A stretch of DNA of 64,000 bases. Source: an uncultured cyanobacterium. GTDB taxonomy: Bacteria; Cyanobacteriota; Cyanobacteriia; PCC-6307; Cyanobiaceae. A program made the position numbers and the translations under genes. Shown here piece after piece: positions 18,988 to 38,485 of the stretch. Every line of letters begins with the position of its first letter. Within the stretch, counting starts at the first letter, position 1. The notes under the pieces are model-generated. The model saw only the letters and a program-made list of their open reading frames with translations. It made no database searches and was not told where the DNA came from. Location: assembly GCA_903823115.1 (NCBI GenBank), contig CAIJRN010000053.1:62001-126000 (forward strand), in the 5' to 3' direction.

Positions 18988-19011
18988 ACCGCTACCTTCC
19001 AGGTCCGCTTC

Positions 19012-19476
19012 ATGTGCCTGGCCGTCTCGGGAGAGATTCTCACCATCAGCGATGGCCAGCCACGGCCTGCCTCGCCACTGCCTGCCGGGGCACTGTCTGC
19101 CTCGCCACTGTCTGCCGGGGCACTGCCTGCCTCGCCACTGTCTGCCGGGGCACTGCCTGCCTCGCAAAGGCCTGCCTCGCCATCGCCTGCTGCGCCATGG
19201 CCTGCCGGGCCACCGTCTGAGTTGCCACGGTCTGAGTTGCCAGCTTCTGAGTTGCCCCTCTCTGACTTGCCTCTGAGCGGCCCGGCGCTGGATCCCCTCT
19301 GGCGCGTCGCTGAGGTCGATTTCGGTGGCGTGCGCCAGCAGGTGAGCCTGGCCTGCCTGCCCGAGGCCCGGGTGGGGGACCGGGTGTTGGTGCATGTCGG
19401 TTTTGCCCTCTCGCTGGTCGAGGAGGAGGACGGGGAGTGGGGCGAGCCCCAGGCCGACTGGAACCGCGGCTGTTGA
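19012..19476 (+). CDS. hypC: Hydrogenase chaperone HypC with large repeat insertion
   Basis: HypC/HupF chaperone that carries the Fe(CN)2CO group with HypD and docks it on HoxH. Family members are about 75-110 residues; this one is 154. The N terminus MCLAVSGEIL, with the essential Cys2, and the C-terminal part LWRVAEVDFGGVRQ...SLACLPEARVGDRVLVHVGFAL are both typical. Between them, residues 19-88 are fourteen 15-nt repeats encoding Pro/Ala/Ser/Leu-rich pentapeptides such as PASPL and PAGAL. The reading frame is kept, so a functional protein with a long loop is plausible. It lies 24 bases after hypF. Confidence 0.92.
   Translation: MCLAVSGEILTISDGQPRPASPLPAGALSASPLSAGALPASPLSAGALPASQRPASPSPAAPWPAGPPSELPRSELPASELPLSDLPLSGPALDPLWRVAEVDFGGVRQQVSLACLPEARVGDRVLVHVGFALSLVEEEDGEWGEPQADWNRGC
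19066..19275 (+). repeat. 15-nt x 14 in-frame tandem repeat in hypC
   Basis: Fourteen consecutive 15-nt units from 19066. Early units alternate CCTGCCTCGCCACTG and TCTGCCGGGGCACTG types; later ones drift to TCTGAGTTGCCACGG types. The total is 210 bases, nearly half the gene. Confidence 0.94.
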
Positions 19477-19738
19477 GCCCAGCCTGGCCAGCAGCCTGGG
19501 CTGATCGCGTCCCACCCGAATCCGATCGGCGGCTGCTCACCTCAGCGGCTGGGTCCCCTCGGAACAGGGTCTGGCAGGGCCCGGGGCTCGCCCCTCTCCG
19601 CCCCGGCGCCCCTCTGCGCCCCGGCGCGACTGTTCGCCCTGGCACCCCTCAGTGACTCGAGCCGTAACGACAACCGGTCCGGGGCCGCCAGGCTGCCTAT
19701 AAGAAAGATGGCCAAGCCGCTGAGCGGGGTTCTTGCCC
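19477..19738 (+). promoter_or_regulatory. Spacer and possible promoter upstream of nifJ
   Basis: A 262-base gap between hypC and nifJ. A TATAAG at 19698-19703 could be a -10 element, but no good -35 is visible at the right distance, so this is weak. It is the most likely place for an independent nifJ promoter. No terminator is seen after hypC. Confidence 0.3.
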
Positions 19739-23461: not shown

Positions 23462-24492
23462 GCACCCCTGATCTCTCCACTACCTACCTGGGCCTTGAGC
23501 TCTCCAGTCCCCTGGTGGTGGGGGCGGCGGCACCCCTGAGTGAGGCCATGGACCAGCTCGCTGGCCTGGAGCGCGCCGGGGCGGCGGCGATCGTGCTGCA
23601 TTCGCTGTTCGAGGAGCAGATCGAGCAGGAGCAGCTCCAGCACCATCGCCTCAGCCTGCAGGGCAGCGAGAGCTATGGCGAAGCCCTCAGCTACGTCAGT
23701 GAGCCGTCGCTGTTCCATGTCGGCCATGACCTCTACCTGCGCCACATCGAGCAGGCCCGCCGCCAGCTCGCGATTCCGCTGATCGCCAGCCTCAATGGCC
23801 ACCATCCCGGCAGCTGGGTGCGCTTCGCCCGCCAGATGGAGGCGGCGGGCGCCGATGCGATCGAGCTCAACATCTACAGCCTGCCCACCGATCCGGATCT
23901 CTCCAGTGCGGCGATCGAGGGCCAGGTGGAGGAGATTGTGCGCCAGGTGCGGGCCGAGGTGAGTCTGCCGCTGGCGGTGAAGCTGGGCCCTTTCTTCACC
24001 AACTTCAGCGCCATGGCCAAACGTCTGGCTGCCGCCGGCGCCGATGGCCTGGTGCTGTTCAATCGCTTCTATCAACCCGACATCGACATCGAGTCCCTGG
24101 AACTGCGGCCCAACCTGCTGCTTTCCACCCCCCATGATCTGCGGCTGCCCCTGCGCTGGATCGCCCTGCTGCACGGCCGTCATCCCCTGGATCTGGCCGC
24201 CAGCGGTGGCGTGCATCGCGGCACCGATGTGGTGCGGCTGTTGATGGCGGGCGCCTGCTGCACCCAGGTGGTGGGGGCGCTGCTGCGCCACGGCCCCCAG
24301 AGGATCACCGGGCTGGTCGATGAACTCTGCCAGTGGTTGCAGGAGCACGATCACGGCAGTGTGCGTGAACTGATCGGCTGCATGAGTCAGCGCCGTTGCC
24401 CCGATCCGGCTGAGTATGAGCGGGCCCAGTACATGAAGGCCCTGCAGACGTATCACCTCGATGACGCGATCTCGGCGCCCGGCCCGTGGTGA
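23458..24492 (+). CDS. Dihydroorotate dehydrogenase-like flavoprotein
   Basis: A 344-residue TIM-barrel protein of the dihydroorotate/dihydropyrimidine dehydrogenase superfamily: LSSPLVVGAAAPLSE at the N terminus, LIASLNGHHPGSW, AIELNIYS, LPLAVKLGPFFTNF and ASGGVHRGTDVVRLLMAGA for FMN/phosphate binding. Its true substrate is unknown; the overlap with nifJ (ATGA) suggests a role tied to pyruvate or low-potential electron metabolism rather than housekeeping pyrimidine synthesis. That link is inference. It lacks a membrane-anchor helix. The stop overlaps the GTG start(s) of hypD. Confidence 0.85.
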   Translation: MSTPDLSTTYLGLELSSPLVVGAAAPLSEAMDQLAGLERAGAAAIVLHSLFEEQIEQEQLQHHRLSLQGSESYGEALSYVSEPSLFHVGHDLYLRHIEQARRQLAIPLIASLNGHHPGSWVRFARQMEAAGADAIELNIYSLPTDPDLSSAAIEGQVEEIVRQVRAEVSLPLAVKLGPFFTNFSAMAKRLAAAGADGLVLFNRFYQPDIDIESLELRPNLLLSTPHDLRLPLRWIALLHGRHPLDLAASGGVHRGTDVVRLLMAGACCTQVVGALLRHGPQRITGLVDELCQWLQEHDHGSVRELIGCMSQRRCPDPAEYERAQYMKALQTYHLDDAISAPGPW

Positions 24493-25589
24493 AGCGGGGG
24501 CAGCAGGCTGTCACCGCCGCTGCGGTGGCCGAGCTGACGGCGGACCTGGCCCGCATCACCACCCGGCCCTGGACGCTGATGGAGGTCTGCGGCGGCCAGA
24601 CCCATGCGATCGTGCGCTGGGGGCTGGACCAGTTGCTGCCGCCGGGGATGCGCCTGCTGCATGGCCCCGGCTGCCCGGTGTGTGTCACCCCCGCTGCCAC
24701 CATTGATGCCGCCCTGCAGCTGGCCCGCCGCTCGGAGGTGATCCTCTGCTCCTACGGCGACATGCTGCGGGTGCCGGGTTCCACTCCCGCCGGGGGAGAT
24801 GATCTGCTCGGGGTCCGGGCCGCCGGTGGCGACGTGCGGCTGCTGACGTCGCCCTTGCAGGCCCTGGAGCTGGCCCGCTGCCAGCCCCAGCGCCAGGTGG
24901 TGTTTTTCGCCGTTGGCTTTGAAACCACCGCCCCGGCCACAGCCCTGCTGGCCCGCCAGGCCCTGGCACTGGGCTTGAGCAATCTCTCGCTGCTGCAGGC
25001 CCATGTGCGGGTGGTGCCGGCGATGGAGGCGATCCTCAGCGATAGCGAGCATCAGGTGCAGGGTTTCCTGGCTGCCGGACATGTGGCCGCCGTGATGGGC
25101 ATGGCCGAGCTGCAGCAGCTGGTGGATCGCCGCCGCTTGCCGGTGGTGGTGAGCGGCTTCGAACCGCTCGATCTGATGCGGGGGCTGCTGGCCTGTGTGC
25201 GGCAGCTGGAGGCGGGTGAGGCACGCTTGAGCAATGCCTACCCGGCGGCGGTGCGTTCCGACGGCAATCGGGCGGCGCAGGATCTGCTGGCGGCGGTGTT
25301 TGAGCCCGTGGATCAGCCCTGGCGTGGTCTGGGCCTGATCGCCGGCGGCGGCCTGGCTCTGCGCCCCCCCTACGACCGCCTCGATGCGCGCCAACGCTTC
25401 GATCTGGACGCCAGTGACGCTGCGCCGGAGGCTTCTGAGGTCTGCATCGCCGGAGCGGTGCTGCGGGGTGTGGCGCGGCCCAGCGACTGTCCGGCCTTCG
25501 GATCCAGCTGCAGTCCCGACCATCCCCTCGGGGCGCCGATGGTGTCCAGCGAAGGCGCCTGTGCCGCTTACCACCGCTACCGCCGCTGA
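24486..25589 (+). CDS. hypD: Hydrogenase maturation protein HypD
   Basis: Iron-sulfur scaffold on which the Fe(CN)2CO unit is assembled with HypC and HypE. The 367-residue product has LMEVCGGQTHAIVRWG, HGPGCPVCVTP with the active-site cysteines, FFAVGFETTAPAT, and the C-terminal cluster-ligand region CPAFGSSCSPDHPLGAPMVSSEGACAAYH. Two adjacent GTG codons (24486 and 24489) can start it; both overlap the preceding stop. It is separated from hypC by the nifJ pair, an order worth noting because HypC and HypD act as a complex. Confidence 0.95.
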   Translation: MVKRGQQAVTAAAVAELTADLARITTRPWTLMEVCGGQTHAIVRWGLDQLLPPGMRLLHGPGCPVCVTPAATIDAALQLARRSEVILCSYGDMLRVPGSTPAGGDDLLGVRAAGGDVRLLTSPLQALELARCQPQRQVVFFAVGFETTAPATALLARQALALGLSNLSLLQAHVRVVPAMEAILSDSEHQVQGFLAAGHVAAVMGMAELQQLVDRRRLPVVVSGFEPLDLMRGLLACVRQLEAGEARLSNAYPAAVRSDGNRAAQDLLAAVFEPVDQPWRGLGLIAGGGLALRPPYDRLDARQRFDLDASDAAPEASEVCIAGAVLRGVARPSDCPAFGSSCSPDHPLGAPMVSSEGACAAYHRYRR

Positions 25590-25655
25590 GGCGATGATGG
25601 CGGCGTTGCCGAGGCGGTGCGGCCGAGGCGGCTCTGACATGAGCAGGTGGAATCG

Positions 25656-26645
25656 ATGAGCGAATGCATCCGCCTGGCCCATGGCGGTGGCGGCACCCTG
25701 ATGCAGCAGCTGATTGATCGGGAGTTCCGCTGTCTCTATGCCGATCCGGAGCAGCTGCTGCACGATGCGGCCTGTCTTGAGTTACCCCACGGTCGCCTCG
25801 CCTTCAGCACCGACAGCTACGTGGTGCAGCCCCTGGAGTTCGCCGGCGGCGACATCGGCACGCTGGCGGTCTGCGGCACCGCCAATGACCTGGCGATGGT
25901 GGGGGCCCGTCCGCTGCATCTGAGCCTGGGGCTGATCCTGGAGGAGGGGCTGGAGCTGGCCCTGTTGCGCCGCATCATCGGCTCGCTGATCGCCAGTGCC
26001 CGCGCCTGCGGCGTCACGATCGTGACCGGTGACACCAAGGTGGTGGAGCGGGGCAAAGGGGATCGGATCTTCATCAACACCAGCGGTATCGGCCTGCAGG
26101 AAGCCCCCGAGCCGATCGGGCCGGCGGCGATCACGGCGGGCGATCAGCTGCTGGTCAGCGGCGATCTCGGTCGCCATGGGGTGGCGATCCTGGCGGCCCG
26201 GCACGGGCTGGATCTGCAGCCGCCCCTGGCCAGCGACTGTGCCCCCCTCTGGCCCCTGGTGCAGCAACTGCTGGCGGCGGGGGTGCGGCTGCACGCTTTG
26301 CGCGATCTCACCCGCGGCGGCCTGGCCAGTGCCCTGCAGGAACTGAGCACCGCCGCAAACCTGGAGCTGGTGGTGGAGGAGAGCGCGATCCCGGTGCAGG
26401 CCACGGTGGCCCGCTGTTGTGAGCTGCTCGGCTTCGATCCGCTGCATCTGGCCAACGAGGGCCGCTGCCTGCTGGTGGTGCCCGAGGTGGCCCGAGCAGC
26501 GGCATTGGCGCTGCTGCAGCCCCTCGGCGGCGCCTGGATCGGTGCCGTGGGCCAGCCGGGCCGGCGGGTGCTGCTGCGCACGGCCTTCGGCAGCGAGCGC
26601 CTGCTGGTGCCCCTCAGCGGCGAGTTGCTGCCGCGCATCTGCTGA
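25656..26645 (+). CDS. hypE: Hydrogenase maturation protein HypE
   Basis: ATP-dependent dehydratase that turns its C-terminal thiocarboxamide into thiocyanate, the cyanide donor for the NiFe site. The 329-residue product starts MSECIRLAHGGGG; a GTG at 25647 would add three residues. PurM-like ATP-binding features are present (FSTDSYVVQPLEF, GTANDLAMVGARP, VTGDTKVVERGKGD) and it ends in the required LLPRIC with the terminal Cys. It is the last gene of the plus-strand hydrogenase run, 66 bases after hypD, and converges on hemN with about 29 bases between the stops. Confidence 0.95.
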   Translation: MSECIRLAHGGGGTLMQQLIDREFRCLYADPEQLLHDAACLELPHGRLAFSTDSYVVQPLEFAGGDIGTLAVCGTANDLAMVGARPLHLSLGLILEEGLELALLRRIIGSLIASARACGVTIVTGDTKVVERGKGDRIFINTSGIGLQEAPEPIGPAAITAGDQLLVSGDLGRHGVAILAARHGLDLQPPLASDCAPLWPLVQQLLAAGVRLHALRDLTRGGLASALQELSTAANLELVVEESAIPVQATVARCCELLGFDPLHLANEGRCLLVVPEVARAAALALLQPLGGAWIGAVGQPGRRVLLRTAFGSERLLVPLSGELLPRIC

Positions 26646-26674: not shown

Positions 26675-28138
26675 TCAGACCAGCCGTGAGCCGCTGGCCT
26701 GCAGGCGCTGCAGCGGATCGAACACCGCTGCGATCGTGCGGATCAGCCAGCGCCCCTGGGTCGTCACGTTCACCGACAGGCGGCCGTTGTGCTGCTCCAG
26801 CTGCACCAGGCCATCGGCGGCCAGGGCCTGCAGATCCGCCAGTTCCGTCTGGAAATCCGCCAGGGGCACAGTCACGCTGAACTGGCACATCAGCGCCCGG
26901 ATCAGGGCACGGCGCTCGAGCACATCCTGATCGCGCACCTCCAGCCCCCGCTCCACCGGCAGCTGCCCTTCGTCCAGGGCCCGGTAATAGGCCTTGAGAT
27001 CGCGATGGTTCTGGGCGAAGAGATGGTGAAACTGGCTGATCGCCGTCGGGCCCACCCCCAGCAGCTCGAGATCGCCGCCGGTGGTGTAGCCCTGGAAGTT
27101 GCGATGCAGGCTGCCCTGGCGGGCGGCGATCGCCAGGCTGTCGCCGCTCAGGGCGTAGTGATCCATGCCGATGGCGTCATAGCCACAGGCCACCAGCAGC
27201 CGATTGGCGTTGTCGAGCATGGCCAGCCGCTGGCGCTGGTCGGGGAGATCGGCGGTGGCGATCTGGCGCTGCAGCGGCAGCTGCTCGGGCAGGTAGGCGA
27301 AGGAGAACAGCGAAATCCGATCGGGCCGCAGCTCCCGCACCAGCTCCAGGGTGGTCTGGAAGCGATCGGGGGTCTGCAGCGGCAGGCCGCAGATCAGATC
27401 GACGTTGACGCTCTGGAAGTCGGCCTCCCGGATCCAGCCCATCACGCGCCGCAGCTGATCGACCGGCACCACCCGGTTCACCGCCGCCTGCACCTGGGGA
27501 TCGGCATCCTGGATGCCGAAGCTGATGCGGTTGAAGCCGAGCTGCCGCAGGGTCTGGATCTGCTCCCGGTCCACCAGTTCGGGATTCAGCTCGATCGAGG
27601 CCTCCAGATCGGCGTCGAGATCGAAGTGCTGGGCGATCAGCTCCCACAGCTGGGCCAGCTCGGCGTTGTTGAGGTAGTTGGGCGTGCCCCCGCCCCAGTG
27701 CAGCTGGGCCAGGCGCCGCCGCTGCGGCATCTGGGCGCTGATCAGCTCCAGCTCCTTGCCCAGGGCGAGCAGATAGGGCTCCACCACCTTCGAGCCCAGC
27801 TGGGTGGTGATGCGATTGCAGCCGCAATACCAGCAGGCATGGCGGCAGAAGGGCACGTGCACATAGAGCGACAGCGGTGCGCTGGCCGGGGTGGCCAGCT
27901 GCTTCGCCATGTCGCCGGCCCCCACGGCCGTGGTGAAGGCCGAAGCCGTCGGATAGCTGGTGTAGCGGGGGACGGGGCGGTCGTACTTGAGCAGCAGCTC
28001 CAGGGGGCTCAGGCAGGGGCTGGTGGCCAGGGCGCCGGGCTGATCTTCGGCACGGGCGGGGGTCGCACTGGTGCTGGTCGCAATGGTGGCGGTCGCAGTG
28101 GCGGTGCTCAAGGTGGCGGTGCTGGTGAGCGAGGGCAT
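26675..28138 (-). CDS. hemN: Oxygen-independent coproporphyrinogen III oxidase
   Basis: Radical-SAM enzyme that converts coproporphyrinogen III to protoporphyrinogen IX without O2, serving heme, chlorophyll and bilin synthesis under low oxygen. The 487-residue product has the four-Cys signature CRHACWYCGC (C98, C102, C105, C107) and RYTSYPTA at the substrate region, which separates true HemN from HemW. The first 40 residues are a Thr/Ala/Ser-rich low-complexity tail encoded by a degenerate repetitive stretch; translation may start further in. It faces the hydrogenase run and follows heme oxygenase on the same strand, a pairing reminiscent of the micro-oxic chlAII-ho2-hemN set of Synechocystis. 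Confidence 0.93.
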   Translation of the reverse strand: MPSLTSTATLSTATATATIATSTSATPARAEDQPGALATSPCLSPLELLLKYDRPVPRYTSYPTASAFTTAVGAGDMAKQLATPASAPLSLYVHVPFCRHACWYCGCNRITTQLGSKVVEPYLLALGKELELISAQMPQRRRLAQLHWGGGTPNYLNNAELAQLWELIAQHFDLDADLEASIELNPELVDREQIQTLRQLGFNRISFGIQDADPQVQAAVNRVVPVDQLRRVMGWIREADFQSVNVDLICGLPLQTPDRFQTTLELVRELRPDRISLFSFAYLPEQLPLQRQIATADLPDQRQRLAMLDNANRLLVACGYDAIGMDHYALSGDSLAIAARQGSLHRNFQGYTTGGDLELLGVGPTAISQFHHLFAQNHRDLKAYYRALDEGQLPVERGLEVRDQDVLERRALIRALMCQFSVTVPLADFQTELADLQALAADGLVQLEQHNGRLSVNVTTQGRWLIRTIAAVFDPLQRLQASGSRLV

Positions 28139-28962: not shown

Positions 28963-29364
28963 GGTGGCGAGCAAGGAAGGTGAGTGGGATGAAGCCGCCG
29001 CTGCCGCTGAGCTCCGGTGCCCGGGGCCGGCCAGCTGGCCGGCCGGAGTGATGGGAGCTCACAGGCCTGGGCGGAGTTCACCGGCGTGGCCGTCGATCAA
29101 GGGCGCGATGGCGGCCGGACAGCGCCGCTGAGTTCAACGGTATAACAGCAGCGTTGTTATGCTGTGTCGTGGTCGCGATTTGTTGCGCGGCTCATCGGCG
29201 ACCTGATCTCCCTGGCTGTCTGGCCCGCTGCCTCTCCTGGCTCAGGGCCTGCCTGGCTCGATGTCCGTCGGCCCCGCAGCCGGCTGGCCTCGTCCGCTTG
29301 TGGTTCCAGGGCGAGGACGCCGGTCCTGAGCTCTCCATCCTGTCCCCTCTTCTTCTCCGTTCCC
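28963..29364. promoter_or_regulatory. Divergent intergenic region between heme oxygenase and a small unknown gene
   Basis: About 400 bases upstream of both genes. Its clearest element is the 19-bp palindrome at 29142-29160, annotated separately. The plus-strand frame of the small gene is open back to 29164, so part of this region may be coding if an upstream start is used; I prefer 29365. Confidence 0.5.
29142..29160. promoter_or_regulatory. Perfect palindrome ATAACA-N7-TGTTAT, candidate operator
   Basis: ATAACAGCAGCGTTGTTAT is symmetric over its six outer bases on each side, a typical dimer-binding site. It lies about 180 bases upstream of the heme oxygenase start and 205 upstream of the small plus-strand gene. 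The core ATAAC-x-GCA-x-CGT recurs at 37236 upstream of the hemerythrin/AcsF operon. The binding protein is unknown. Confidence 0.55.
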
Positions 29365-29733
29365 ATGACCATTTCCGCCTGTTCCGTTCTGCATCTGCTC
29401 CTGGCCCCCCGCGGCCAGCTCAGCGCCGATGGCCAGCTGGGGGAGTTGATCCGGGAGCGCCGCAGCCGCCTCGGCGGCGATGGCGGCATCCTCTATCTCA
29501 GCCCCGAGCTGCTGGCGTCCCAGCAGCTGGCGACTCAGTCGCTGGCGGACATGTCGCTGGCGGCCATGCCGCTGGCCGGTGCCGACCAGGAGGCTGTGGC
29601 GGCCCAGGATCCCGCCGTGATCACCTGGTTGCAGCTGCGCTTCGGTGGCCGCCGCCAGAGCTGGGAGCTGCCGGTCGCCGCCCTGCCCGAAGGCAGCCTC
29701 GATCTGCCGCCGGCGGTGGCCTTGCCCTGGTGA
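29365..29733 (+). CDS. Small unrecognised protein divergent from heme oxygenase
   Basis: A 122-residue product from ATG 29365: MTISACSVLHLLLAP, then a mixed sequence with YLSPELLAS, ending LPPAVALPW. No family recognised and no membrane segment or metal motif. It carries three 15-nt units (29539-29583) encoding SLADM, SLAAM, PLAGA. The upstream frame to 29164 is Pro/Ser-rich and looks non-coding. It is convergent with the HD-GYP gene. Moderate confidence that it is real. Confidence 0.55.
   Translation: MTISACSVLHLLLAPRGQLSADGQLGELIRERRSRLGGDGGILYLSPELLASQQLATQSLADMSLAAMPLAGADQEAVAAQDPAVITWLQLRFGGRRQSWELPVAALPEGSLDLPPAVALPW
29539..29583 (+). repeat. 15-nt x 3 in-frame tandem repeat in the small unknown gene
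   Basis: TCGCTGGCGGACATG, TCGCTGGCGGCCATG and a more diverged third unit follow one another. Confidence 0.8.
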
Positions 29734-29782: not shown

Positions 29783-31177
29783 TCAGTAGCTGGTGGGGGC
29801 GAAGGCGTAGCCCTGGCCTCGGAACAGCCGCAGACAGGCCGCCACCGGCTCCGGGTCGTAGTGCAGGCCACACTCCGCCTCCACGGTGGCCAGGGCCGCC
29901 GCGATTCCCAGGGACTGGCGGTACGGGCGGTTCGTGGCCATCGCCTCCACCGTGTCGGCGACGGCCAGGATGCGGGCCTCCAGGCAGATCTGATCCCCCT
30001 TCAGGCCCCGGGGGTAACCGCTGCCATCGAGGCGTTCATGGTGCTGGCGCACCGCTTCGGCGACGGGCCAGGGGAACTGGATCGGCCGCAGCGCCTCGTA
30101 GCCGGCTTCGGCATGGGTGCGCACCAGGGCCAGCTCCTCGGGGGACAGGCGGGTGGGTTTGGTCAGGATCTCGGCGGGGATCGTGAACTTGCCGACGTCA
30201 TGGACCAGGCCGCTGATGCGGATCCCCTCCACCTGCTGGGGTGAGAGCTTCATCTCGGTGGCGATCGCACTGGCCAGGGCCGAGACCCGCAGCTCATGGC
30301 CGGCGGTGTAGGGATCGCGAGCTTCGTTGAGGGAGACCAGGGCGCCGACGATCTGGTGCAGGCTCTGCAACACTTCGCCTTGATATTGCAGGGCCAACTG
30401 TTCGGCAGCTCGGCGATCGGAGATATCGCGGATGTTGCATTGCATCACGGTGGTCTCACCGGCGCCATATCTGTTGCTGACGAACTCCACCTCGCGTGTC
30501 GCACCGTTGGCGCTTTGCAGCATCAGGTTGTCGTGGCGCACGTAGCCCTGTTGCTGCAGCGCGGTGAAGATCTCCAGGACTCCCTGCTGATCGCGGAAGA
30601 CGCCGAGTTCCCACAGTTGTTTGCCCAGCAGCTCGGGTGTCGCCAGGCCCAGCAGCTCACAGATGAAGGGATTGGCCTCGAGGATGCGGCCGCTGTCGGC
30701 GTCGAGGATGAGGATGCCGTCCTGGGCCGCTTCAAACAGACCCCGGTAGCGCTCTTCACTGGTGATCAGCGCCCGTCGGCTTCGGGCTTCGGCGATGGCT
30801 CGGATCACGATGCTCCCGAGTTTGTCCAGCTGGTGCTTGAACACGTAGTCCACCGCCCCCTGGCGCAGGGCGCTCAGGGCCGCGGCCTCGGAAATGGTGC
30901 CCGAGACAAACAGGAACGGCACCTCAGGCGCCAGCTCCCGGGCGATCTGCAGCGCCCGTGCTCCGGAGAACTCCGGCAGGGTCCAGTCCGCCAGGATGGC
31001 GTCCGGTAGCTGCTGGCTGAGGGCGGCGCGCAAGCCCTGCTCGGTATCGCTGGCCCGGATTTTCGGCTTCAAGCCCCCATCCAGCAGGGCATCAGTGATC
31101 AGCTCAAGATCTTCCGCCGAATCCTCAATGATCAACAGGTCGACCAAACCGATCGCCGGCGAGACCAGGGAGGTCAT
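29783..31177 (-). CDS. Response regulator with PAS and HD-GYP domains
   Basis: A 464-residue protein: receiver domain (IIEDSAEDLELI, phosphoacceptor Asp in AILADWTLPEFSG, Lys in VDYVFKHQ), a PAS domain (ILILDADSGRILEANPFICELLG), then an HD-GYP phosphodiesterase domain. The last has HDVGKFTIP, the QHHERLDGSGYPRGLKGD signature, and ILAVADTVEAMA. HD-GYP proteins hydrolyse cyclic di-GMP, so the predicted output is lowered c-di-GMP. Start at ATG 31177 gives an ATGA overlap with the upstream response regulator; the frame extends to 31213. It is the last gene of a three-gene signalling set. Confidence 0.92.
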   Translation of the reverse strand: MTSLVSPAIGLVDLLIIEDSAEDLELITDALLDGGLKPKIRASDTEQGLRAALSQQLPDAILADWTLPEFSGARALQIARELAPEVPFLFVSGTISEAAALSALRQGAVDYVFKHQLDKLGSIVIRAIAEARSRRALITSEERYRGLFEAAQDGILILDADSGRILEANPFICELLGLATPELLGKQLWELGVFRDQQGVLEIFTALQQQGYVRHDNLMLQSANGATREVEFVSNRYGAGETTVMQCNIRDISDRRAAEQLALQYQGEVLQSLHQIVGALVSLNEARDPYTAGHELRVSALASAIATEMKLSPQQVEGIRISGLVHDVGKFTIPAEILTKPTRLSPEELALVRTHAEAGYEALRPIQFPWPVAEAVRQHHERLDGSGYPRGLKGDQICLEARILAVADTVEAMATNRPYRQSLGIAAALATVEAECGLHYDPEPVAACLRLFRGQGYAFAPTSY

Positions 31178-31623
31178 TGGGTGGTTCCGGGCAGTTTGTT
31201 GAGCAACATCCAATAGAGCCCCAGTTCGGCCACCGATTTCATGAACGCCTCCGACTCGACCGGTTTGACCAGATAACTGTTGGCACCCAGGTTATAGGCG
31301 CGCACCAGGTCGGATTCTTCCTGCGAGGAGGTGAGCACCACAACGGGCATCAGCCGGGTGGTCTCGTCGGCTCTGATCCGTTTGAGCACCTCCAGTCCAT
31401 CCACCCTGGGCAGTCGCAGATCCAGCAGCACCAGTTTGAGGTTCAGCAGGGTCGTCGACTGCCGCTTGCTCCCCACCAGCAGCTCCAGGGCTTCGGCCCC
31501 ATCCTTCACCCATTGCACGGCGTTGACCAGGCCGGTGGCCAGCAAGGCATCGATGGTGAGCTCGGCATCGGCAGGGTTGTCCTCCACCAGCAGCAACTCC
31601 AGGGGGCTGTTGTGATGCGTCAT
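31174..31623 (-). CDS. CheY-like response regulator (Rcp1-type)
   Basis: A single-domain receiver of 149 residues: VEDNPADAEL acidic pocket, phosphoacceptor Asp in LVLLDLRLPRVDG, Thr in VVVLTSS and Lys in SYLVKPVES. It has no output domain, so it probably shuttles phosphate between the kinase encoded just upstream and the HD-GYP regulator encoded just downstream. The sequence resembles the small regulators paired with cyanobacterial phytochrome-type kinases, though the kinase here has no GAF/PHY domain. Confidence 0.93.
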   Translation of the reverse strand: MTHHNSPLELLLVEDNPADAELTIDALLATGLVNAVQWVKDGAEALELLVGSKRQSTTLLNLKLVLLDLRLPRVDGLEVLKRIRADETTRLMPVVVLTSSQEESDLVRAYNLGANSYLVKPVESEAFMKSVAELGLYWMLLNKLPGTTQ

Positions 31624-31641
31624 GGTGATCGTCCTCGGGAA

Positions 31642-34008
31642 TCAGGCGGGCTCGGTGGTGCTGGCGGCAACTGTGGTGCCGGTGGCAAGCGTGGTGCTGG
31701 CGGCAACTGTGGGGCCGGCGGCAACCGTGGGGCTGGCGGCAAGGGCCTGGTGAAGCGGCAGCGTGAAGTGGAAGGTGGCGCCGCCATCGGGCTGGCCTTC
31801 GCCCCAGATGCGGCCCTGGTGGCGATGCAGGATGCGCTGGCTCAGGGCCAGGCCCACACCGGTGCCTTCAAACTCATCCTGGCGATGCAGTCGCTGGAAG
31901 ACCCCGAACAACTTGTCGGCATAGGCCATGTCGAAGCCGGCGCCGTCGTCCTGGACGCTGTAGATCGCCTCGCTGCCCTGCGGCTCCCCCGCCACCGTGA
32001 TGTGGGCCACGGGGCGATCGCGCGAGAACTTGATCGCATTGCCGATCAGGTTCACCCACACCTCCCGCAACATGGCGGCATCGCCTTTGGCCTCAGGCAG
32101 CTTGCCGCAGCTGAATTCGATCCGGCGCTCAGACTCGGAGGCCAGCAAGTCCGAGGCCACCCCCCGGGCCAGGGCCTCCATGTCCACCGGTTCGATCTGC
32201 AGCTCGCGGCGGCCCAGGCGCGAGAAGCGCAGCAGATCGTCGATCAGCTGGCCCATGCGCTGGGCGTTGTCGCGCACCACCTGCAGCAGCCGCCGGCCCT
32301 CGTCATCGAGCTGGTCGCTGTAGGTCTTGAGCAGCTTGTGGCTGAAGCCGTCCACAGCTCGCAGCGGCGCGCGCAGATCGTGGGAGACCGAATAGGCGAA
32401 GGCCTCCAGTTCCTGGTTGACTTCCGTGAGATCCTCGGTGCGTTGTTGCACGCGTTCTTCCAGCTCGGTGTTGAGGCTGCGCAGTTTCTCCTCCATCTGC
32501 TGCACCTGGCTGATGTCGCGGGCGGCGGCATAGACACCGAGCACCTCGCCCTGGCCATTGCGATAGGTGCTGGCGTTGTAGAGCACCGGCATCAGCGAGC
32601 CGGAGACATGGCGCAGGGTGAGGGGGTAATCCCGCACCGAACCCTGCTGGAAAGCGTTTTGATAGCCCTGCCGGGCCCGCTCCGGCTCGGTGAAGAAATC
32701 GGCGAAATCCCGTCCCTGCAGCGCCCCTCGCGGTAGCCCGGTGGCCTGGACCGTCGCCTCATTGACATCCTCGATCGTGCCGGCGGGGCTGATCGTGACC
32801 AGGGGATCGATGCTGGTTTCAATCAGGCTGCGGGTGTAGTGCACCTTCTCCAGCAGAGCCTGTTCTTCGGTCTTGAGGGCGGTGATGTTGAGCATGATCG
32901 TGATCAGCTCCAGTGAGGCATCCTTGCTGTTGCGGCGCAGCACCAATCCCTCATCGACCCAGACTTTCTGGCCGTTGCGATGCCGGTAGCACTGCACCAG
33001 CCGGGCAGAGGGTTTGCTGCCATCCAGCAAGGACGCCAGGCCGGCGGCGTGGCCCTTGGGCTCCTGGGGATCGCAGAGGCTCTCCAGGCTCAGCGCCTTC
33101 AGCTCCTCCCTGCTGTAGCCCAGCATCGTGGCCACGGCTTCGTTGGCTTCCAGCTGCTGTTCCCCCAGCTCTTCTGTGCTGTAGCCCAGCATCGTCGCCA
33201 AGGCTTTGTTGTCGTCCAGCGTGGGTCCGCCGGGGTTGATGGCGGCCAGCTTGGTCATCGCCATGCCGACGCTGGCATTGTCGAACAGGTAACGGAAGCG
33301 CTCCTCACTGCTGATCAGGGCGCCAAGCGTGGCTGCGCGGGCCTGCCGTTCCCGCCGGATCAGCCCCAGGTTGACGATCACCAGCACCAGCATCGTCACC
33401 ATGCTGAGGGCCTGAAGCAGCTGCAGGCGCTGGCGCTGCTGGTTCAGGTGGCTGCTGCGGCTCAGCAGCAGTTGCTGCTCATCGCGCGTCATCGCTCGCA
33501 GTTGGCCCAAGATCAAGGCCAATGAAGAGTTGATCTGCGTCGTCAGCAGCCGGCGGGAGGCTTCGCCATTGCTGCCCTCAGCCAGCTGGATGCTGCGCTC
33601 CAGCAACCGCTGATGGCTCGTGACAGCAAGCCGCAGCTGACTCCAACGTGCCTTCTGGACCCTGTTCTCATCCGTCAGGCTCTTCAACTCCTCCAGCGAC
33701 CGCTCCTCCAGGTCGTAGCCGCTCCAGGGGATGGGGCTGACATACCCAGCAGGGTTGACAATGCTGGCCATGGCCCGCAGATCGCTCTGCAGCAGGCCAC
33801 GCTCCACATCCGAAAGCGACACCAGCACCGCCTGGCTGCGGCTGGTCCGGATCGCTTCATTGAAGGTGTCCTGGGTCTGCCTCCAGGCGAATCCCCAGGC
33901 CACCAGTGCCAGGGCACCGGCGGCGGCCAGGGGGATCAGGGGATTGAGCGGGCGGCTGCTTTTCTGGGGGATGGCGATCGCGTGTGCTGGCCGTTCGGCT
34001 TGCTGCAT
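31642..34008 (-). CDS. Membrane sensor histidine kinase with PAS domains
   Basis: A 788-residue kinase. Two membrane helices (LIPLAAAGALALVAWGFAW near 26-44 and LQALSMVTMLVLVIVNLGL near 195-215) flank a helical sensor resembling CHASE3. Then come two PAS domains, a HisKA helix with phosphoacceptor VSHDLRAPLRAVDGFS, and the ATPase domain (NLIGNAIKFS, DDGAGFDM, GTGVGLALS). The first PAS contains a 22-residue tandem duplication (33111-33242 region). The C terminus ends in five 18-nt repeats encoding Thr/Val/Ala-rich units after the catalytic domain. The signal is unknown; neighbours suggest oxygen or redox, which is inference. Confidence 0.92.
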   Translation of the reverse strand: MQQAERPAHAIAIPQKSSRPLNPLIPLAAAGALALVAWGFAWRQTQDTFNEAIRTSRSQAVLVSLSDVERGLLQSDLRAMASIVNPAGYVSPIPWSGYDLEERSLEELKSLTDENRVQKARWSQLRLAVTSHQRLLERSIQLAEGSNGEASRRLLTTQINSSLALILGQLRAMTRDEQQLLLSRSSHLNQQRQRLQLLQALSMVTMLVLVIVNLGLIRRERQARAATLGALISSEERFRYLFDNASVGMAMTKLAAINPGGPTLDDNKALATMLGYSTEELGEQQLEANEAVATMLGYSREELKALSLESLCDPQEPKGHAAGLASLLDGSKPSARLVQCYRHRNGQKVWVDEGLVLRRNSKDASLELITIMLNITALKTEEQALLEKVHYTRSLIETSIDPLVTISPAGTIEDVNEATVQATGLPRGALQGRDFADFFTEPERARQGYQNAFQQGSVRDYPLTLRHVSGSLMPVLYNASTYRNGQGEVLGVYAAARDISQVQQMEEKLRSLNTELEERVQQRTEDLTEVNQELEAFAYSVSHDLRAPLRAVDGFSHKLLKTYSDQLDDEGRRLLQVVRDNAQRMGQLIDDLLRFSRLGRRELQIEPVDMEALARGVASDLLASESERRIEFSCGKLPEAKGDAAMLREVWVNLIGNAIKFSRDRPVAHITVAGEPQGSEAIYSVQDDGAGFDMAYADKLFGVFQRLHRQDEFEGTGVGLALSQRILHRHQGRIWGEGQPDGGATFHFTLPLHQALAASPTVAAGPTVAASTTLATGTTVAASTTEPA
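31655..31744 (-). repeat. 18-nt x 5 in-frame tandem repeat at the kinase C terminus
   Basis: On the plus strand, units GTGGTGCTGGCGGCAACT (31655 and 31691, identical) alternate with variants at 31673, 31709 and 31727. On the coding strand they give Ala/Thr/Val-rich hexapeptides. Confidence 0.9.
33111..33242 (-). repeat. 66-bp tandem duplication inside a PAS domain
   Basis: The plus-strand string TGCTGTAGCCCAGCATCGT begins at 33111 and again at 33177, exactly 66 bases apart. In protein, NKALATMLGYSTEEL and NEAVATMLGYSREEL repeat with a 22-residue period in the sensor kinase's first PAS domain. Confidence 0.85.
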
Positions 34009-34081: not shown

Positions 34082-34837
34082 TCAGGCCGTCATCGCCCGC
34101 CGCAGCAGGCGGGCTGCCTCGCTGGAGCCGAAGCCGATCGTTTCCAGGGAGTGCTGGAAGCCCTCGCCGAAGCTCGCCACCAGCTCATAGGGATCCATGC
34201 CGATCACGCGCATGTCGTCCACCAGGGCCCGCAGGATGCCCAGAGTGGTGGGCAGGGCCTGCAGGCAGATGGCCGAGACGGCCGCCTGCACCGCCGCAAA
34301 GCGCTGTTTCAACCACACCTCGCCGTAGTCGAGGTGTTCGCTTTCATCCTCGAGCACGGCGGCGGTGATCGGTCGGGCGAAGGCATCGGCCACGGGCAGG
34401 TAGTTGCGATAGGCCGCCACCGCAAAGCACTCGACGATCAGGCACTGGATCACGACGCAACCGGGAATGTCGCCGCGCTCGTCACACTGGCGAAAGAGCT
34501 GGTGCAGGGGCGCGAACAGCTGTTTGGCCAGCCGGATGTCGGGTCTGACGCCGAGATTCCTGGCGCATTCGCTCAACTGGCGGGCATGGTTGCCCTCCAT
34601 CTGCCCCAGTCGCAGCAGTTCAGCCCCATCAGCGGGGATGGCGCGGGCCAGCCGGCGGAAGTGATGGTGGGCCAGGGTTTCCCCCACCACCACCACACCG
34701 TTGATGCGGCCGTAGGCCTGCCGATAGGTCTCGGAGTCGGTGTCCGGGCGGCCGTCCGCGCAGTTGTCCGCACTGATCGGTGGCTCCTGGTGAATCAAGG
34801 CAGCAGGCTTGATCTGGCAATCCGTGGTGACCGTCAT
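34082..34837 (-). CDS. Aldehyde deformylating oxygenase-like di-iron protein
   Basis: A 251-residue ferritin-like protein clearly related to cyanobacterial aldehyde deformylating oxygenase (ADO), which makes alkanes from fatty aldehydes. All six expected di-iron ligands can be aligned: E53 (VGETL), E81 and H84 (MEGNH), E136 (IVECFA), E165 and H168 (ESEH). Family landmarks YRQAYGRIN, CLIVECFAVAAYRNYLPVADAFAR and YGEVWLK are present. It has about 35 extra N-terminal residues compared with the ADO I remember, and many substitutions, so its substrate may differ. It is not beside an acyl-ACP reductase gene. It is instead the last gene of an overlapped operon with a hemerythrin-like protein, AcsF and a glycosyltransferase. 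Start at ATG 34837 overlaps the glycosyltransferase stop. Confidence 0.85.
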   Translation of the reverse strand: MTVTTDCQIKPAALIHQEPPISADNCADGRPDTDSETYRQAYGRINGVVVVGETLAHHHFRRLARAIPADGAELLRLGQMEGNHARQLSECARNLGVRPDIRLAKQLFAPLHQLFRQCDERGDIPGCVVIQCLIVECFAVAAYRNYLPVADAFARPITAAVLEDESEHLDYGEVWLKQRFAAVQAAVSAICLQALPTTLGILRALVDDMRVIGMDPYELVASFGEGFQHSLETIGFGSSEAARLLRRAMTA

Positions 34838-35646
34838 GAGGAAGCTGGCTCGCAGGGGGACAGGGGATGGTTCATGGCGGCGCGGGCGGCTTGCCAGCGC
34901 TCCGACTGCGGCATGGCCTGGCAGTCGTCGAACCAGGGGCCACCGAGGGTGTAGTGCAGGATGCGGGCGCTTTCCGGCACCGGTTGCACCCCCACCAGCA
35001 CATTCCATTCCGGCGGCAGATCGCCGATGGCGTCGTCCTCGAGCCAGCGGAACTGGTGCAGATCCAGCCCACTGGCGCTGTTCACGTACTCCGGGGTGAG
35101 GGCGCGGCAACGGCCGCAGTTGAACAGCACCACCGAGGACCAGTTCTTGCGGCCGTAGGGGCTCTGGGGCATCCCCTGGAATTTGAGTCCCTGCTCGCAC
35201 TGCATCTGGTGTTTCACCACCTGCACCGCCTTGGATTCATCGCGCAGGGCCCAGAGCTCGGCGATGTCTCCCTGGCAGAGCATGTCGGCATCGATGAACA
35301 GGGCCCAGCCTTCGTAGCCGGCCAGCCAGGGCACCAGGAAACGGCTGAATGAAAAGGCCGTGCTCTGCAGCGGATGGTGCTGGCGCCGGTAGACGTTGCC
35401 CAGCTGGGAGAGCCTGACCTGGGCGATCTGCACCGGCGTGGTCGCATGGGCCTGGATTGAATCGGCCAGCACGTTGACGGCCACGTCCTCGCGGGGGTCG
35501 TAGCCGATGAACACCCGCGGGGTGTCGCGGCCGGTGAGCGGCCCCTGGGCGTTTGGAGCGAGGGTCGTCGCTGGGTCCGTGAGCGCTGGGTCTGGATGGG
35601 CGGAGCCATGAGGCGCTGAGCTCGTACGCGTCGCCGAGGTCGTCAT
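34834..35646 (-). CDS. Glycosyltransferase, GT8-like
   Basis: A 270-residue protein with RVFIGYDPREDVAVNVLADSI at residue 44 onward, then a DxD-type metal/nucleotide-sugar motif in LFIDADMLCQGD, and SSVVLFNCGRC further on. The overall pattern is a GT-A fold nucleotide-sugar transferase, close to GT8-like proteins, with unknown acceptor. The first 40 residues are Ser/Ala/Pro-rich. ATGA overlaps at both ends tie it to AcsF upstream and the ADO-like gene downstream. Why a glycosyltransferase sits in a chlorophyll/di-iron operon is unclear. Confidence 0.8.
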   Translation of the reverse strand: MTTSATRTSSAPHGSAHPDPALTDPATTLAPNAQGPLTGRDTPRVFIGYDPREDVAVNVLADSIQAHATTPVQIAQVRLSQLGNVYRRQHHPLQSTAFSFSRFLVPWLAGYEGWALFIDADMLCQGDIAELWALRDESKAVQVVKHQMQCEQGLKFQGMPQSPYGRKNWSSVVLFNCGRCRALTPEYVNSASGLDLHQFRWLEDDAIGDLPPEWNVLVGVQPVPESARILHYTLGGPWFDDCQAMPQSERWQAARAAMNHPLSPCEPASS

Positions 35647-36707
35647 GCCACCACCTCGGCCGAGGCCACCATCGGCTGGCTGAACTGGCGCAGCAGCAGT
35701 TGGGCGAATTGCCAGCGCAATTTCATCCGCTGCAGCCAGCGGTTGCTGGCAGCCGGGGAGCCGGCCAGGGCCTTGAGCTGCCGGAAGGTGTCCACCAGCT
35801 GGTCGCGCAGCTCGAAGTAACGGCTGTTGTCCAGGTCGAACACCATCGGGAAGGCGCGCTGGGCGGTGCGGTTGGTCTGGCGCATCACCTCGGCATCGAA
35901 CTGGGCCGGATCGAGTCCGAGCAGGGCGTAAAAGTCGCCGCGCTCACACACCGTCAGGCTGTGGGTGAGGAACACGGACCAGAGAAAGAAACGGCTCAGC
36001 AGGCGCCCGCGCAGGCCCCGGCGCAGGCCCGGCCAGCAGCGGATCAGCATGTTGAAGATGTCGCCATGGCGGTTCTCGTCCTGGCACCAGGGCTCGAAGA
36101 AATCGAACAGGGGCGCGACGCTGTTGTCGGGATTGGCCTTGAGATGGCGATCGATCAGGATGTAACGCCAGTAGCCGATCTTCTCGGAGAGATAGACCGA
36201 ATACAGCACCCAGCTGAGCGGAAACCAGGTGATCGGCCGCTTGCCGCTCAGGGAGGGCAGGTCGATCGTGATGCCTTCCGCCACCAGGGCCCGGTTGAGG
36301 AAGCCGGCATGGCGGGCTTCGTCGCGGGCCATCAGCTGGAACAGGCGGCCCAGATCGGCGCGGCCGGCCTGCATCAGCCGGCGGGAGAGTTCCTTGAACA
36401 GCAGGAAGCCGGAGAACTCCGACACACAGGAGCGCACCAGATAGCTCTCGTAGGCTTCCTTGTCGGCGGCCGAGAGGTCCCGCAGCCGATCCATGGGAGT
36501 GCGTCGATCGAAGTGATCGCGGTTGTAGTCCGCCTCCATCTCAGCGAGCATGGCGTCGAAGATCGGCCGTTGCGGTTCGATGTCGGTGGTGGCGGCCTTG
36601 GCGATCTGGGTGGTGTAGAAGCGCGGTGTCAGCAGGTCTTCGCGCAGATGGGGGGCGGGGCCGACATCGGCGGTGGCTGCTGCACCGGGGCTGGCGAGGG
36701 TGGTCAT
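35643..36707 (-). CDS. acsF: Mg-protoporphyrin IX monomethyl ester oxidative cyclase (AcsF/ChlA)
   Basis: Aerobic di-iron cyclase that forms the fifth ring of chlorophyll at the membrane. The 354-residue product has the family landmarks YTTQIAKAA, AMLAEMEADYNRDHF, CVSEFSGFLLFKELSRRL, the iron-binding ARDEARHAGFLNRAL and the downstream CQDENRHGDIF. Cyanobacteria can hold two cyclases, one for low oxygen (chlAII). The company of heme oxygenase, hemN and a hemerythrin-like protein suggests this is the low-oxygen form, though the sequence alone does not prove it. It overlaps the genes on both sides by 4 bases. Confidence 0.93.
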   Translation of the reverse strand: MTTLASPGAAATADVGPAPHLREDLLTPRFYTTQIAKAATTDIEPQRPIFDAMLAEMEADYNRDHFDRRTPMDRLRDLSAADKEAYESYLVRSCVSEFSGFLLFKELSRRLMQAGRADLGRLFQLMARDEARHAGFLNRALVAEGITIDLPSLSGKRPITWFPLSWVLYSVYLSEKIGYWRYILIDRHLKANPDNSVAPLFDFFEPWCQDENRHGDIFNMLIRCWPGLRRGLRGRLLSRFFLWSVFLTHSLTVCERGDFYALLGLDPAQFDAEVMRQTNRTAQRAFPMVFDLDNSRYFELRDQLVDTFRQLKALAGSPAASNRWLQRMKLRWQFAQLLLRQFSQPMVASAEVVA

Positions 36708-37195
36708 GGTTGTGAAGGGGTGATGGAACGGGCAAGGGCGTAGGCGTGGGCATCGGGGCCGCCTGTGTGCTCCAGCAGCCAGGCCTGCAGGCCCCGCAGC
36801 CAGATCAGCTGTTGCTGGCGATCAGTTCCGGCCTGCCTCAAGCCCTCCTCGCTGTCATGGGCGACCAGCTGATGGATGGCTCGATGCCCTGGGCAGAGGC
36901 AGCCGCAGGCACTCAGCCAGCGCTCCTCCAGCCGCAGGTGCAGCCGCAGCTGTCGCAGCAGTTGCTGCCGCAGCAGCTGCTGGCTGCCGCTGCCGAGCTC
37001 GGCCGGTGCGGCCGGCTGATCGGCGCCGCAGAGCACCGCCAGGGTCAGATCGGCGATCTGATCCCGCAGGATCTGGTGCTGCCGCTCCAGCAACAGCTCC
37101 CGCTGCGGCCAGGCAACTGGCCAGCGGCCCGGGCCCGCCACGGCGGCGGCAGGACGGCTCAGCAGCACCGGAGCCTCGGTGACAATCAGCGCCAT
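36704..37195 (-). CDS. Hemerythrin-like di-iron protein
   Basis: A 163-residue helical protein. A full set of seven hemerythrin-type iron ligands can be placed with near-canonical spacing: H40, H86 and E90 (HLRLE), H104 and H108 (HRAIH), H143 and D148 (HTGGPD). It is therefore predicted to bind O2 or store iron reversibly, in the cytosol, as no signal peptide is present. It is the first gene of the operon with AcsF (ATGA overlap), suggesting O2 delivery to, or sensing for, the O2-dependent cyclase; this is inference. I do not know a named family with exactly this context. Confidence 0.72.
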   Translation of the reverse strand: MALIVTEAPVLLSRPAAAVAGPGRWPVAWPQRELLLERQHQILRDQIADLTLAVLCGADQPAAPAELGSGSQQLLRQQLLRQLRLHLRLEERWLSACGCLCPGHRAIHQLVAHDSEEGLRQAGTDRQQQLIWLRGLQAWLLEHTGGPDAHAYALARSITPSQP

Positions 37196-37220: not shown

Positions 37221-37254
37221 TCACAACGGTCATGTCATAACGGCATCGTGATAC
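37221..37254. promoter_or_regulatory. Direct repeats and heme-oxygenase-like motif upstream of hemerythrin/AcsF operon
   Basis: TCAcAACGG at 37221-37229 and TCATAACGG at 37235-37243 are near-identical repeats. The second runs into ATAACGGCATCGT, which matches the ATAAC-x-GCA-x-CGT core of the palindrome at 29142. It lies 26-59 bases upstream of the operon's first ATG, the right distance for an operator. Confidence 0.45.
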
Positions 37255-37360: not shown

Positions 37361-37508
37361 AGTTTTGTCGGGCTTCGCCCCTCTTGTCTGCGGCAGGGCA
37401 TGAGCGACGCTCGGCTGCAGCCGTGAGCTTCCAGTCGGGCAACGTGCGCCGGGCCTGCCGGTTGGGCTTCATCTCTTCATCCAACGCCACCTTTTCTTCG
37501 CTGTGTCC

Positions 37509-37814
37509 ATGGAAGCCCTGGCCGACTACTTCAAGGTCTTCTCCGAGCCCAATCGCCTGGCGGTGCTGGAAGCCCTGCGCGATGGTCCTCTCAATGTCAC
37601 GGCCGTCGTCGACAAGACCGGCCTCAGCCAGGCCCTGGTTTCGAAGCACCTGAAGTTGTTGATGATCGCCGGTGTGGTGCATCGGCGCCCCGAGGGTTCG
37701 CTGGTGTTCTATGAAGTGGTCGATCGCTCGGTGTTCAGGTTGATCGCCCAGGCGGAAAAACTGCTGATGGCCTCTCGTCGTCTGCAATTCGAGGCCCTGG
37801 CGGCGAGCCTCTGA
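37509..37814 (+). CDS. ArsR/SmtB-family transcription regulator without cysteines
   Basis: A 101-residue winged-helix regulator: YFKVFSEPNRLAVLEALRDGPLNV, recognition helix GLSQALVSKHLKLLMIAGVV, wing HRRPEGSLVFYEVV. It lacks the ELCVCDL metal site of ArsR/SmtB and contains no cysteine at all, so it is unlikely to use thiol-based metal, sulfide or redox sensing. A GTG at 37503 would add two residues. It is divergent from the hemerythrin/AcsF operon and so a candidate for its regulator. Its stop overlaps the start of the pentapeptide gene (TGATG). Confidence 0.88.
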   Translation: MEALADYFKVFSEPNRLAVLEALRDGPLNVTAVVDKTGLSQALVSKHLKLLMIAGVVHRRPEGSLVFYEVVDRSVFRLIAQAEKLLMASRRLQFEALAASL

Positions 37815-38485
37815 TGGCCGCCGAGGCCCCCCTGCCGCTCACGGTGGCGGAGTTGCGTCAGGCGCTGGCGGCAGGACGGCGCCATTTCCCCGGCCTGCGT
37901 CTGCTCGATGTCGACGGTGGTGATCTCGATCTTTCCGGCTGTGATCTGCGCGGCGGCTCCTTCCAGGAAGCCCGCTTCGGCCATGCCCGCTTCCAAGGCG
38001 CCAATCTGGCCTCCTGCGGTTTCCAGCAGGCGTTGATCTGGGGGGGCGATCTTTCGTCGGTGCAGGCGCCCCGATCCAGCTGGCAGGAGGCGGATCTCTC
38101 CGGATCCCGACTGCAGCATGCCGACCTCAGCGGTGCCCGGCTGCATCGCTGTTGTCTGCGGGGGGTGGTGGCGGCGGGCAGCATCTGGTGTGAAGCCACG
38201 CTGGTGGATGTGGACTTCCGCAGTGGTCAGGACCAGCTCACCGATCTGGGCGGTGCTGATTTCCGCGGCGCCGATCTCAGCTTTGCCCAGTTGCAGGGGG
38301 TGCAGCTGCGCGGTGCTGATCTGCGGGGTAGCTGTCTCTATGGCGCCAACTTCAGCGGTGCCGACTTGCGGCAGGCCGATCTGCGGGGCTGTGATCTCAG
38401 GGCTTGCCAGCTCGATGGTGCTGATCTGCAGCAGGCCCGGCTTGACGCTGTCAGCGGAGCCCATCCGGCGCTTGAGCCCAGCTGA
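37814..38485 (+). CDS. Pentapeptide repeat protein
   Basis: A 223-residue protein. After a 35-residue head it is built of A(D/N)LxG-type pentapeptides (for example GADLRG, GANFSG, GADLRQ), forming a right-handed quadrilateral beta helix. No signal peptide or membrane segment is evident. Function unknown; some family members mimic DNA. Translationally coupled to the ArsR-type regulator. Confidence 0.9.
   Translation: MAAEAPLPLTVAELRQALAAGRRHFPGLRLLDVDGGDLDLSGCDLRGGSFQEARFGHARFQGANLASCGFQQALIWGGDLSSVQAPRSSWQEADLSGSRLQHADLSGARLHRCCLRGVVAAGSIWCEATLVDVDFRSGQDQLTDLGGADFRGADLSFAQLQGVQLRGADLRGSCLYGANFSGADLRQADLRGCDLRACQLDGADLQQARLDAVSGAHPALEPS

Follow-up and report, generated by a model that had tools for sequence, protein, structure and literature searches.

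An enlarged picocyanobacterial acsF2–ho2–hemN locus with hemerythrin-like and aldehyde-deformylating-oxygenase-like genes

Here, we analyzed a 64,000-nucleotide stretch of DNA (the window) from an uncultured cyanobacterium of the Cyanobiaceae (contig CAIJRN010000053.1, positions 62,001 to 126,000 of the forward strand). Four minus-strand genes at 37195–34082 encode a hemerythrin-like (Hr-like) protein, a second AcsF cyclase (AcsF2), a GT8-family glycosyltransferase, and a divergent paralogue of aldehyde deformylating oxygenase (ADO2). The locus is an enlarged and differently regulated picocyanobacterial form of the known micro-oxic acsF2–ho2–hemN cluster and, as far as our searches show, its new part consists of the links of Hr and of ADO2 to acsF2. 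It is quite likely that the locus provides low-oxygen isozymes for the synthesis of chlorophyll, bilins, heme, and alkanes, gene context being what points to low oxygen.

Closure of chlorophyll ring E by AcsF and the chemistry of ADO both require O2, whereas HemN does not. If our reading is right, the locus names a low-oxygen cyclase, a candidate O2-binding helper encoded directly before that cyclase, and a low-oxygen alkane enzyme, as well as a candidate regulator with a defined putative operator that replaces ChlR in picocyanobacteria. The gene set probably lets tiny lake cyanobacteria continue pigment and membrane-hydrocarbon synthesis when oxygen is scarce. The same reading would offer a reason for the second ADO of some strains, which has been published without an explanation (PMC3903477).

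Layout and conservation of the locus

The four genes and the elements that belong with them are listed below in window coordinates.

36704–37195, minus strand: Hr-like protein, 163 amino acids
35643–36707, minus strand: AcsF2, second copy of the O2-dependent Mg-protoporphyrin IX monomethyl ester cyclase, 354 amino acids
34834–35646, minus strand: GT8-family glycosyltransferase, 270 amino acids
34082–34837, minus strand: ADO2, divergent aldehyde-deformylating-oxygenase paralogue, 251 amino acids
28288–28974, minus strand: heme oxygenase ho2 (PF01126, 95.5 bits)
26675–28138, minus strand: hemN, oxygen-independent coproporphyrinogen III oxidase (TIGR00538, 485.5 bits; cut-off 324.95)
37503–37814, plus strand: divergent ArsR-family regulator (PF01022, 40.6 bits; NF033788, 73.7 bits; both above cut-off), start codon uncertain
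37814–38485, plus strand: pentapeptide-repeat protein that travels with arsR (PF00805, 125 bits)
37237–37252, no strand: operator-like inverted repeat ATAACG-GCAT-CGTGAT, an exact match to ATMACGN4CGTKAT

An initial annotation of this DNA described the four genes as joined by 4-base ATGA overlaps at every junction, and such overlaps are indeed present at three of three junctions. The start of ADO2 was taken to be the ATG at 34837 (the tool used to call open reading frames [ORFs] begins at an upstream GTG); ho2 is annotated from a TTG, with an ATG four codons further in, and its product had no NCBIfam match at 1e-5. The annotation also set the combination apart from micro-oxic acsF/heme oxygenase/hemN clusters. 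This part had to be given up, as ho2 and hemN follow acsF2 on the same strand, so that the window does hold a second acsF beside ho2 and hemN. The four-gene frame is too narrow, and ho2, hemN, the regulator gene, and the operator-like site belong with the four genes.

According to published work (PMC4500134), the chlR–acsFII–ho2–hemN–desF cluster of Synechococcus sp. PCC 7002 is controlled by ChlR and includes a desF gene that is needed under micro-oxic conditions, where its mutant fails; a chlAII–ho2–hemN cluster is known from Synechocystis 6803. The present locus resembles these clusters in keeping a second acsF, ho2, and hemN together and in the divergently oriented regulator gene that lies upstream of acsF2. 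A low-oxygen isoform of an O2-dependent lipid enzyme is added in each case, namely desF in PCC 7002 and ADO2 here (plus a desaturase, DesL, in 16 of the 65 genomes introduced below), with the low-oxygen role of ADO2 being one that we infer. The regulator is of the ArsR family, unlike the MarR-type ChlR of PCC 7002, and neither known cluster has the Hr-like, GT8, and ADO2 genes at the acsF2 end or the pentapeptide gene beside the regulator. In the open-licence PMC literature, no paper joins aldehyde deformylating oxygenase, acsF, and cyanobacteria, and hemerythrin and acsF were not joined in any paper among the matches listed.

Conservation was assessed in 65 fetched genomes, comprising 64 with an AcsF2 of at least 67% identity plus G208 (the fragment rows G155 and G141 were left out), and in an outer group of ten genomes taken from the rows with an AcsF2 of 60 to 65% identity. 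The 65 genomes carry ArsR (60), the pentapeptide protein (60), HO2 (51), HemN (48), ADO2 (44), a conserved protein called C5 (39), Hr (26), GT8 (25), and DesL (16), the window genome itself being scored without HemN because its fetched stretch stops short of hemN. At least 6 kb downstream of AcsF2 was covered in 50 of the 65 stretches, and among these HO2 was found in 40 and HemN in 38. The genes usually run [Hr]–acsF2–[desaturase]–[GT8]–[ADO2]–ho2–hemN (brackets marking genes that may be missing), with arsR diverging from them and C5 on the opposite strand. ADO2 lies in one stretch with AcsF2 in 41 of its 44 genomes and on a separate contig in G181, G183, and G294.

The annotation had asked for conserved adjacency to acsF2, and the presence of ADO2 in 44 and Hr in 26 of the 65 acsF2 genomes indicates an association beyond chance. 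Chance adjacency in one strain, which it had named as grounds for abandoning the idea, was rejected in view of synteny in tens of genomes, yet Hr, acsF2, GT8, and ADO2 are all present in only 10 of the 65. Hr and ADO2 co-occur in 23 genomes, against 3 with Hr only, 21 with ADO2 only, and 18 with neither (Fisher p 0.006, relatedness ignored). Across 299 genomes of the order, Hr was matched in 27, including one weak row (G058, 29% over 79 residues) that was excluded from the 26, and an ADO2-type match was found in 42 (50–100% identity; next row 40%). In a draw of 244 genomes from the phylum, the Hr query had no match outside the family, the window genome being the only one matched, and the ADO2 query gave only matches of approximately 36 to 43% identity outside the family.

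No Hr, DesL, GT8, ADO2, HO2, or HemN was found within the stretches of the ten outer genomes. Around 24 second-AcsF loci of other cyanobacteria (1.5 kb flanks), HO2 was matched in 10 and HemN in 7, with no match to Hr, ADO2, or GT8. Ten loci with organism titles, among them one from a Lake Pavin metagenome-assembled genome (MAG) and one from Vulcanococcus limneticus LL, agree with this picture: all ten have AcsF2, eight have Hr, and GT8 and DesL are present in five each, some of the loci apparently being the same contigs as in the counted genomes. Cultured carriers include V. limneticus LL and Synechococcus GreenBA-s (loci L038 and L039). The cyanobacterial locus is also carried by a record titled as a Bifidobacterium breve MAG (L035, CALPNT020000022.1), which is probably mislabelled or mis-binned.

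Proposed role and the hemerythrin-like protein

In the mechanism that we propose, falling O2 would cause the ArsR-family regulator to let the gene set be expressed. AcsF2 and HO2 would take over two O2-using steps, in the formation of chlorophyll ring E and of bilins, and HemN would perform the O2-free coproporphyrinogen step. ADO2 would make alkanes, with the one AAR of the genome providing the fatty aldehydes, in parallel to DesF desaturation in Synechococcus 7002. The weakest step concerns the Hr-like protein, which, as we suggest tentatively and by analogy, may bind scarce O2 and buffer it or pass it to the neighbouring di-iron enzymes. A low-oxygen setting is likely because the neighbours (ho2, hemN, and the hydrogenase/PFOR island described below) alone point there. 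Hence, the joint low-oxygen role put forward in the initial annotation fits the context given by downstream ho2 and hemN, the island, and synteny, although its separateness from the micro-oxic cluster does not stand.

The seven putative iron ligands of the Hr-like protein that had been read from the window (H40, H86, E90, H104, H108, H143, and D148) turned out to be identical across 26 homologues of 33 to 78% identity, apart from H86, which is kept in 25 of 26; C101 is likewise kept in 25 of 26. Canonical hemerythrins space their ligands as H-x3-E, H-x3-H, and H-x4-D, and the spacing in the Hr-like protein matches this pattern. AlphaFold2 models the protein as a helical bundle with pLDDT 87.4, and hemerythrin domains of DcrH take the first two places in a Foldseek search with this model (E 0.036 and 0.079, probability 1.00, TMt 0.77 and 0.72), with no row at E ≤ 0.001; a sequence search against solved structures gave nothing at E ≤ 1. 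Among the 26 homologues, 19 match PF01814 at E ≤ 0.01. With the ligands kept and the scores under the cut-offs, the predicted protein is best named “hemerythrin-like.”

Bacteriohemerythrin has been proposed to deliver O2 to methane monooxygenase in methanotrophs (PMC12607906). The Hr-like protein shares with bacteriohemerythrin and the DcrH domains the ligand set and its spacing, and it is modelled as a helical bundle. Unlike bacteriohemerythrin, it falls under the Pfam and NCBIfam cut-offs and is encoded beside a chlorophyll cyclase rather than a methane monooxygenase.

A different function is conceivable, and we consider it somewhat unlikely: the Hr-like protein could be an O2 scavenger that protects HemN, PFOR, and hydrogenase, or a sensor for the signalling genes of the window, unrelated to any supply of AcsF2 and ADO2. 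The genes for HemN, PFOR, and hydrogenase are indeed close by in the window, and an ArsR protein without evident sensing residues leaves the sensor slot free. However, Hr lies directly before acsF2 in every fetched locus that has it, with its stop codon within the ATGA overlap in 12 of 26 loci, and many hemN loci are without Hr, which means that hemN does not need Hr. The most far-reaching version of the supply reading, in which a dedicated hemerythrin gathers trace O2 for both the cyclase and the alkane-forming oxygenase as an intracellular O2 supply chain, under a cysteine-free ArsR protein with its own operator, appears rather unlikely. If true, such a chain would mean that chlorophyll and membrane hydrocarbons are made in almost O2-free light zones.

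ADO2 and AcsF2

ADO2 matches PF11266 with 211.7 bits (cut-off 28) and TIGR04059 with 210.1 bits, which is under the equivalog cut-off of 222.65. The six ADO ligands noted earlier in the window protein (E53, E81, H84, E136, E165, and H168) are kept in every ADO2 row with a residue at the site, except for one R at H168, in an alignment of 47 rows (45–46 with a residue per site; the window gene counted twice and PDB 5ux2 included). The structural model of ADO2 (pLDDT 91.6) matches ADO folds at Z 34–39, the closest comparison being PDB 5ux2 (Z 38.8, root-mean-square deviation 0.5 over 220 residues, 61% identity), and it has the same fold and the same di-iron ligands as the cyanobacterial ADOs 5ux2, 4rc5, and 2oc5. 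PDB 5ux2 is identical to the ADO2 of genome G055, possibly Synechococcus RS9917, over 218 aligned residues. Its deposited title reads “Protein 19 with aldehyde deformylating oxidase activity from Synechococcus,” and the paper behind it is probably Mak et al. 2020.

For phylogenetic analysis, 97 ADO rows were reduced to 93 by dropping four with fewer than 150 aligned residues; two rows are the same gene of the window genome, the tree was midpoint-rooted, and long branches were flagged. In this tree, a 100/100 branch separates all 42 ADO2 rows, together with PDB 5ux2, from the ADO1 proteins of picocyanobacteria and other cyanobacteria (the score of two changes for the ADO2 group is due solely to the separate label of 5ux2). 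A recent copying of ADO2 from the genome's own ADO1, to which it is approximately 40% identical, was therefore rejected, and the split between the two is presumably old. The ordinary ADO1 (392 bits) is located on another contig, C18, adjoining the only AAR of the genome, so that a second AAR serving ADO2 was rejected as well. ADO2 thus differs from ordinary ADO in its separate clade, its distance from AAR, and its tie to acsF2. Two ADO homologues have been reported in some strains, including Cyanobium gracile PCC 6307 and Synechococcus RS9917 (PMC3903477).

It could be argued that ADO2 has departed from alkane synthesis and applies the same di-iron chemistry to a different substrate, perhaps a membrane aldehyde or one linked to tetrapyrroles. 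This would fit the low identity to ADO1, the score under the TIGR04059 cut-off, the lack of an adjoining AAR, and the many ADO1-invariant positions near the active site that are changed (e.g., E51V, E55L, N59H, F103L, and F107L in window numbering). We regard it as improbable, given that all six ligands are kept, that the fold matches ADO so closely, and that a member of the clade, 5ux2, was deposited under an ADO-activity title. Separately, genome G450 has a second, long-branched ADO (L229, 7051–7785) beside ORFs that by eye are of FAD type and methyltransferase-like, with no acsF2, ho2, or hemN within 15 kb.

AcsF2 matches TIGR02029 with 355 bits (equivalog cut-off 192.5), and the ordinary AcsF of the same genome (505 bits) is on contig C71. 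The AcsF2 stop codon lies inside an ATGA in 38 of 75 loci. A quick midpoint-rooted AcsF tree places picocyanobacterial AcsF2 together with the outer group on one side of a branch with support 100, but the AcsF1 of the window genome, on a long branch, falls among the rows of other cyanobacteria. In genomes G002, G003, G005, and G008, the sole match to the AcsF2 query is a 60 to 65% AcsF2-type copy, which may therefore be their sole cyclase.

Regulator, opposing observations, and neighbouring genes

The inverted repeat of the window is located 42 bases upstream of the Hr start codon. Among 61 gaps between arsR and the operon, 28 contain an exact ATMACG-N4-CGTKAT and 47 contain this pattern with no more than one mismatch, compared with 0.08 expected from shuffles, the pattern having been derived from these same gaps, which are related sequences. 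The window genome has one exact site and 20 one-mismatch sites, versus 6 for a reversed-pattern control. A larger regulon was rejected: in a comparison of 16 genomes, no site other than that at arsR (shared by 15) recurs, and approximately ten other sites were inspected roughly, with no target claimed. A perfect palindrome, ATCACGCCGGCGTGAT, was seen in G063, G133, and G117 (L262, L263, and L264, near 1501), some 50 to 150 bases from an ORF whose protein begins with FRNLLIADSGKGHVEEMVR; this regulator may have a further target there, or the palindrome may be a chance occurrence.

No MarR-type ChlR was found beside acsF2, where the adjoining regulator is of the ArsR family; the rest of the genome was not searched for ChlR. 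The metal- or thiol-sensing residues of ArsR/SmtB proteins were not found, and the one conserved His of the ArsR rows presumably lies in the recognition helix, as judged by its motif. That the locus merely looks like a low-oxygen island, with inheritance keeping the order and the operon answering a different cue, such as light, iron, or a metal sensed by the ArsR-type regulator, is very improbable, for although ArsR/SmtB proteins are named metalloregulators and NF033788 is matched above cut-off, the acsF2–ho2–hemN core is the published micro-oxic set (PMC4500134) and the ArsR rows are essentially without Cys or a conserved metal-ligand pattern.

Several observations weigh against the low-oxygen isozyme reading or parts of it. 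The regulator has no evident metal site, Cys occurring in the ArsR domain of 2 of 63 rows at unconserved positions, and a promoter scan of the locus gave no sigma-70-type promoter-like site (a terminator scan gave one terminator-like site, with 1.4 expected). ADO2 and ho2 are 5.1 kb apart in the window, with three signalling genes within this distance, which makes a single transcript through hemN doubtful. The additions to the cluster are optional, since 21 of the 44 ADO2 genomes are without Hr and 11 of the 65 acsF2 genomes lack Hr, DesL, GT8, and ADO2 altogether. Damaged ADO2 copies occur as well: those of G165 and G181 are interrupted by an internal stop, that of G279 is fragmented, and that of G063 has decayed. 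In G297, ADO2 and GT8 are oriented opposite to acsF2. The window Hr-like protein scores 19.2 bits with PF01814, under the curated cut-off of 25.3, and under the NCBIfam cut-offs too, and a genome-wide PF01814 search of the window genome gave no match at E ≤ 0.001. Finally, the AcsF tree does not resolve AcsF2 as orthologous to the second AcsF (ChlAII) of other cyanobacteria.

The region between ADO2 and ho2, and that to the left of hemN, contain the following features, the signalling genes being assigned by Pfam.

29783–34008, minus strand: three signalling genes, outside the common core of the cluster
31642–34008, minus strand: histidine kinase
31174–31623, minus strand: response regulator
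29783–31213, minus strand: response regulator with PAS and HD domains
29164–29733, plus strand: C5, conserved protein of no Pfam family (no match at 0.01)
9057–26645, plus strand: hydrogenase/fermentation island

The island encodes HoxE-like, NuoF-like, NiFe-hydrogenase large subunit, HypB, HypF, HypC, PFOR, DHOD-like, HypD, and HypE-like proteins. The top NCBIfam match of the large subunit is VhuA, under cut-off, and the HypE-like call is based on AIRS domains and position.

The GT8 protein matches PF01501 with 30.9 bits (cut-off 24.3), and a D-A-D motif is present in 25 of 25 homologues; its sequence gave nothing at E ≤ 0.1 against solved structures. Its role would most likely be a sugar change of the envelope or of lipids. 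C5 is present at 39 of the 65 inner acsF2 loci and at all ten outer ones, and in the ten outer genomes it lies beside a 2Fe-2S ferredoxin next to acsF2 (e.g., L149, 9995–10399, minus strand).

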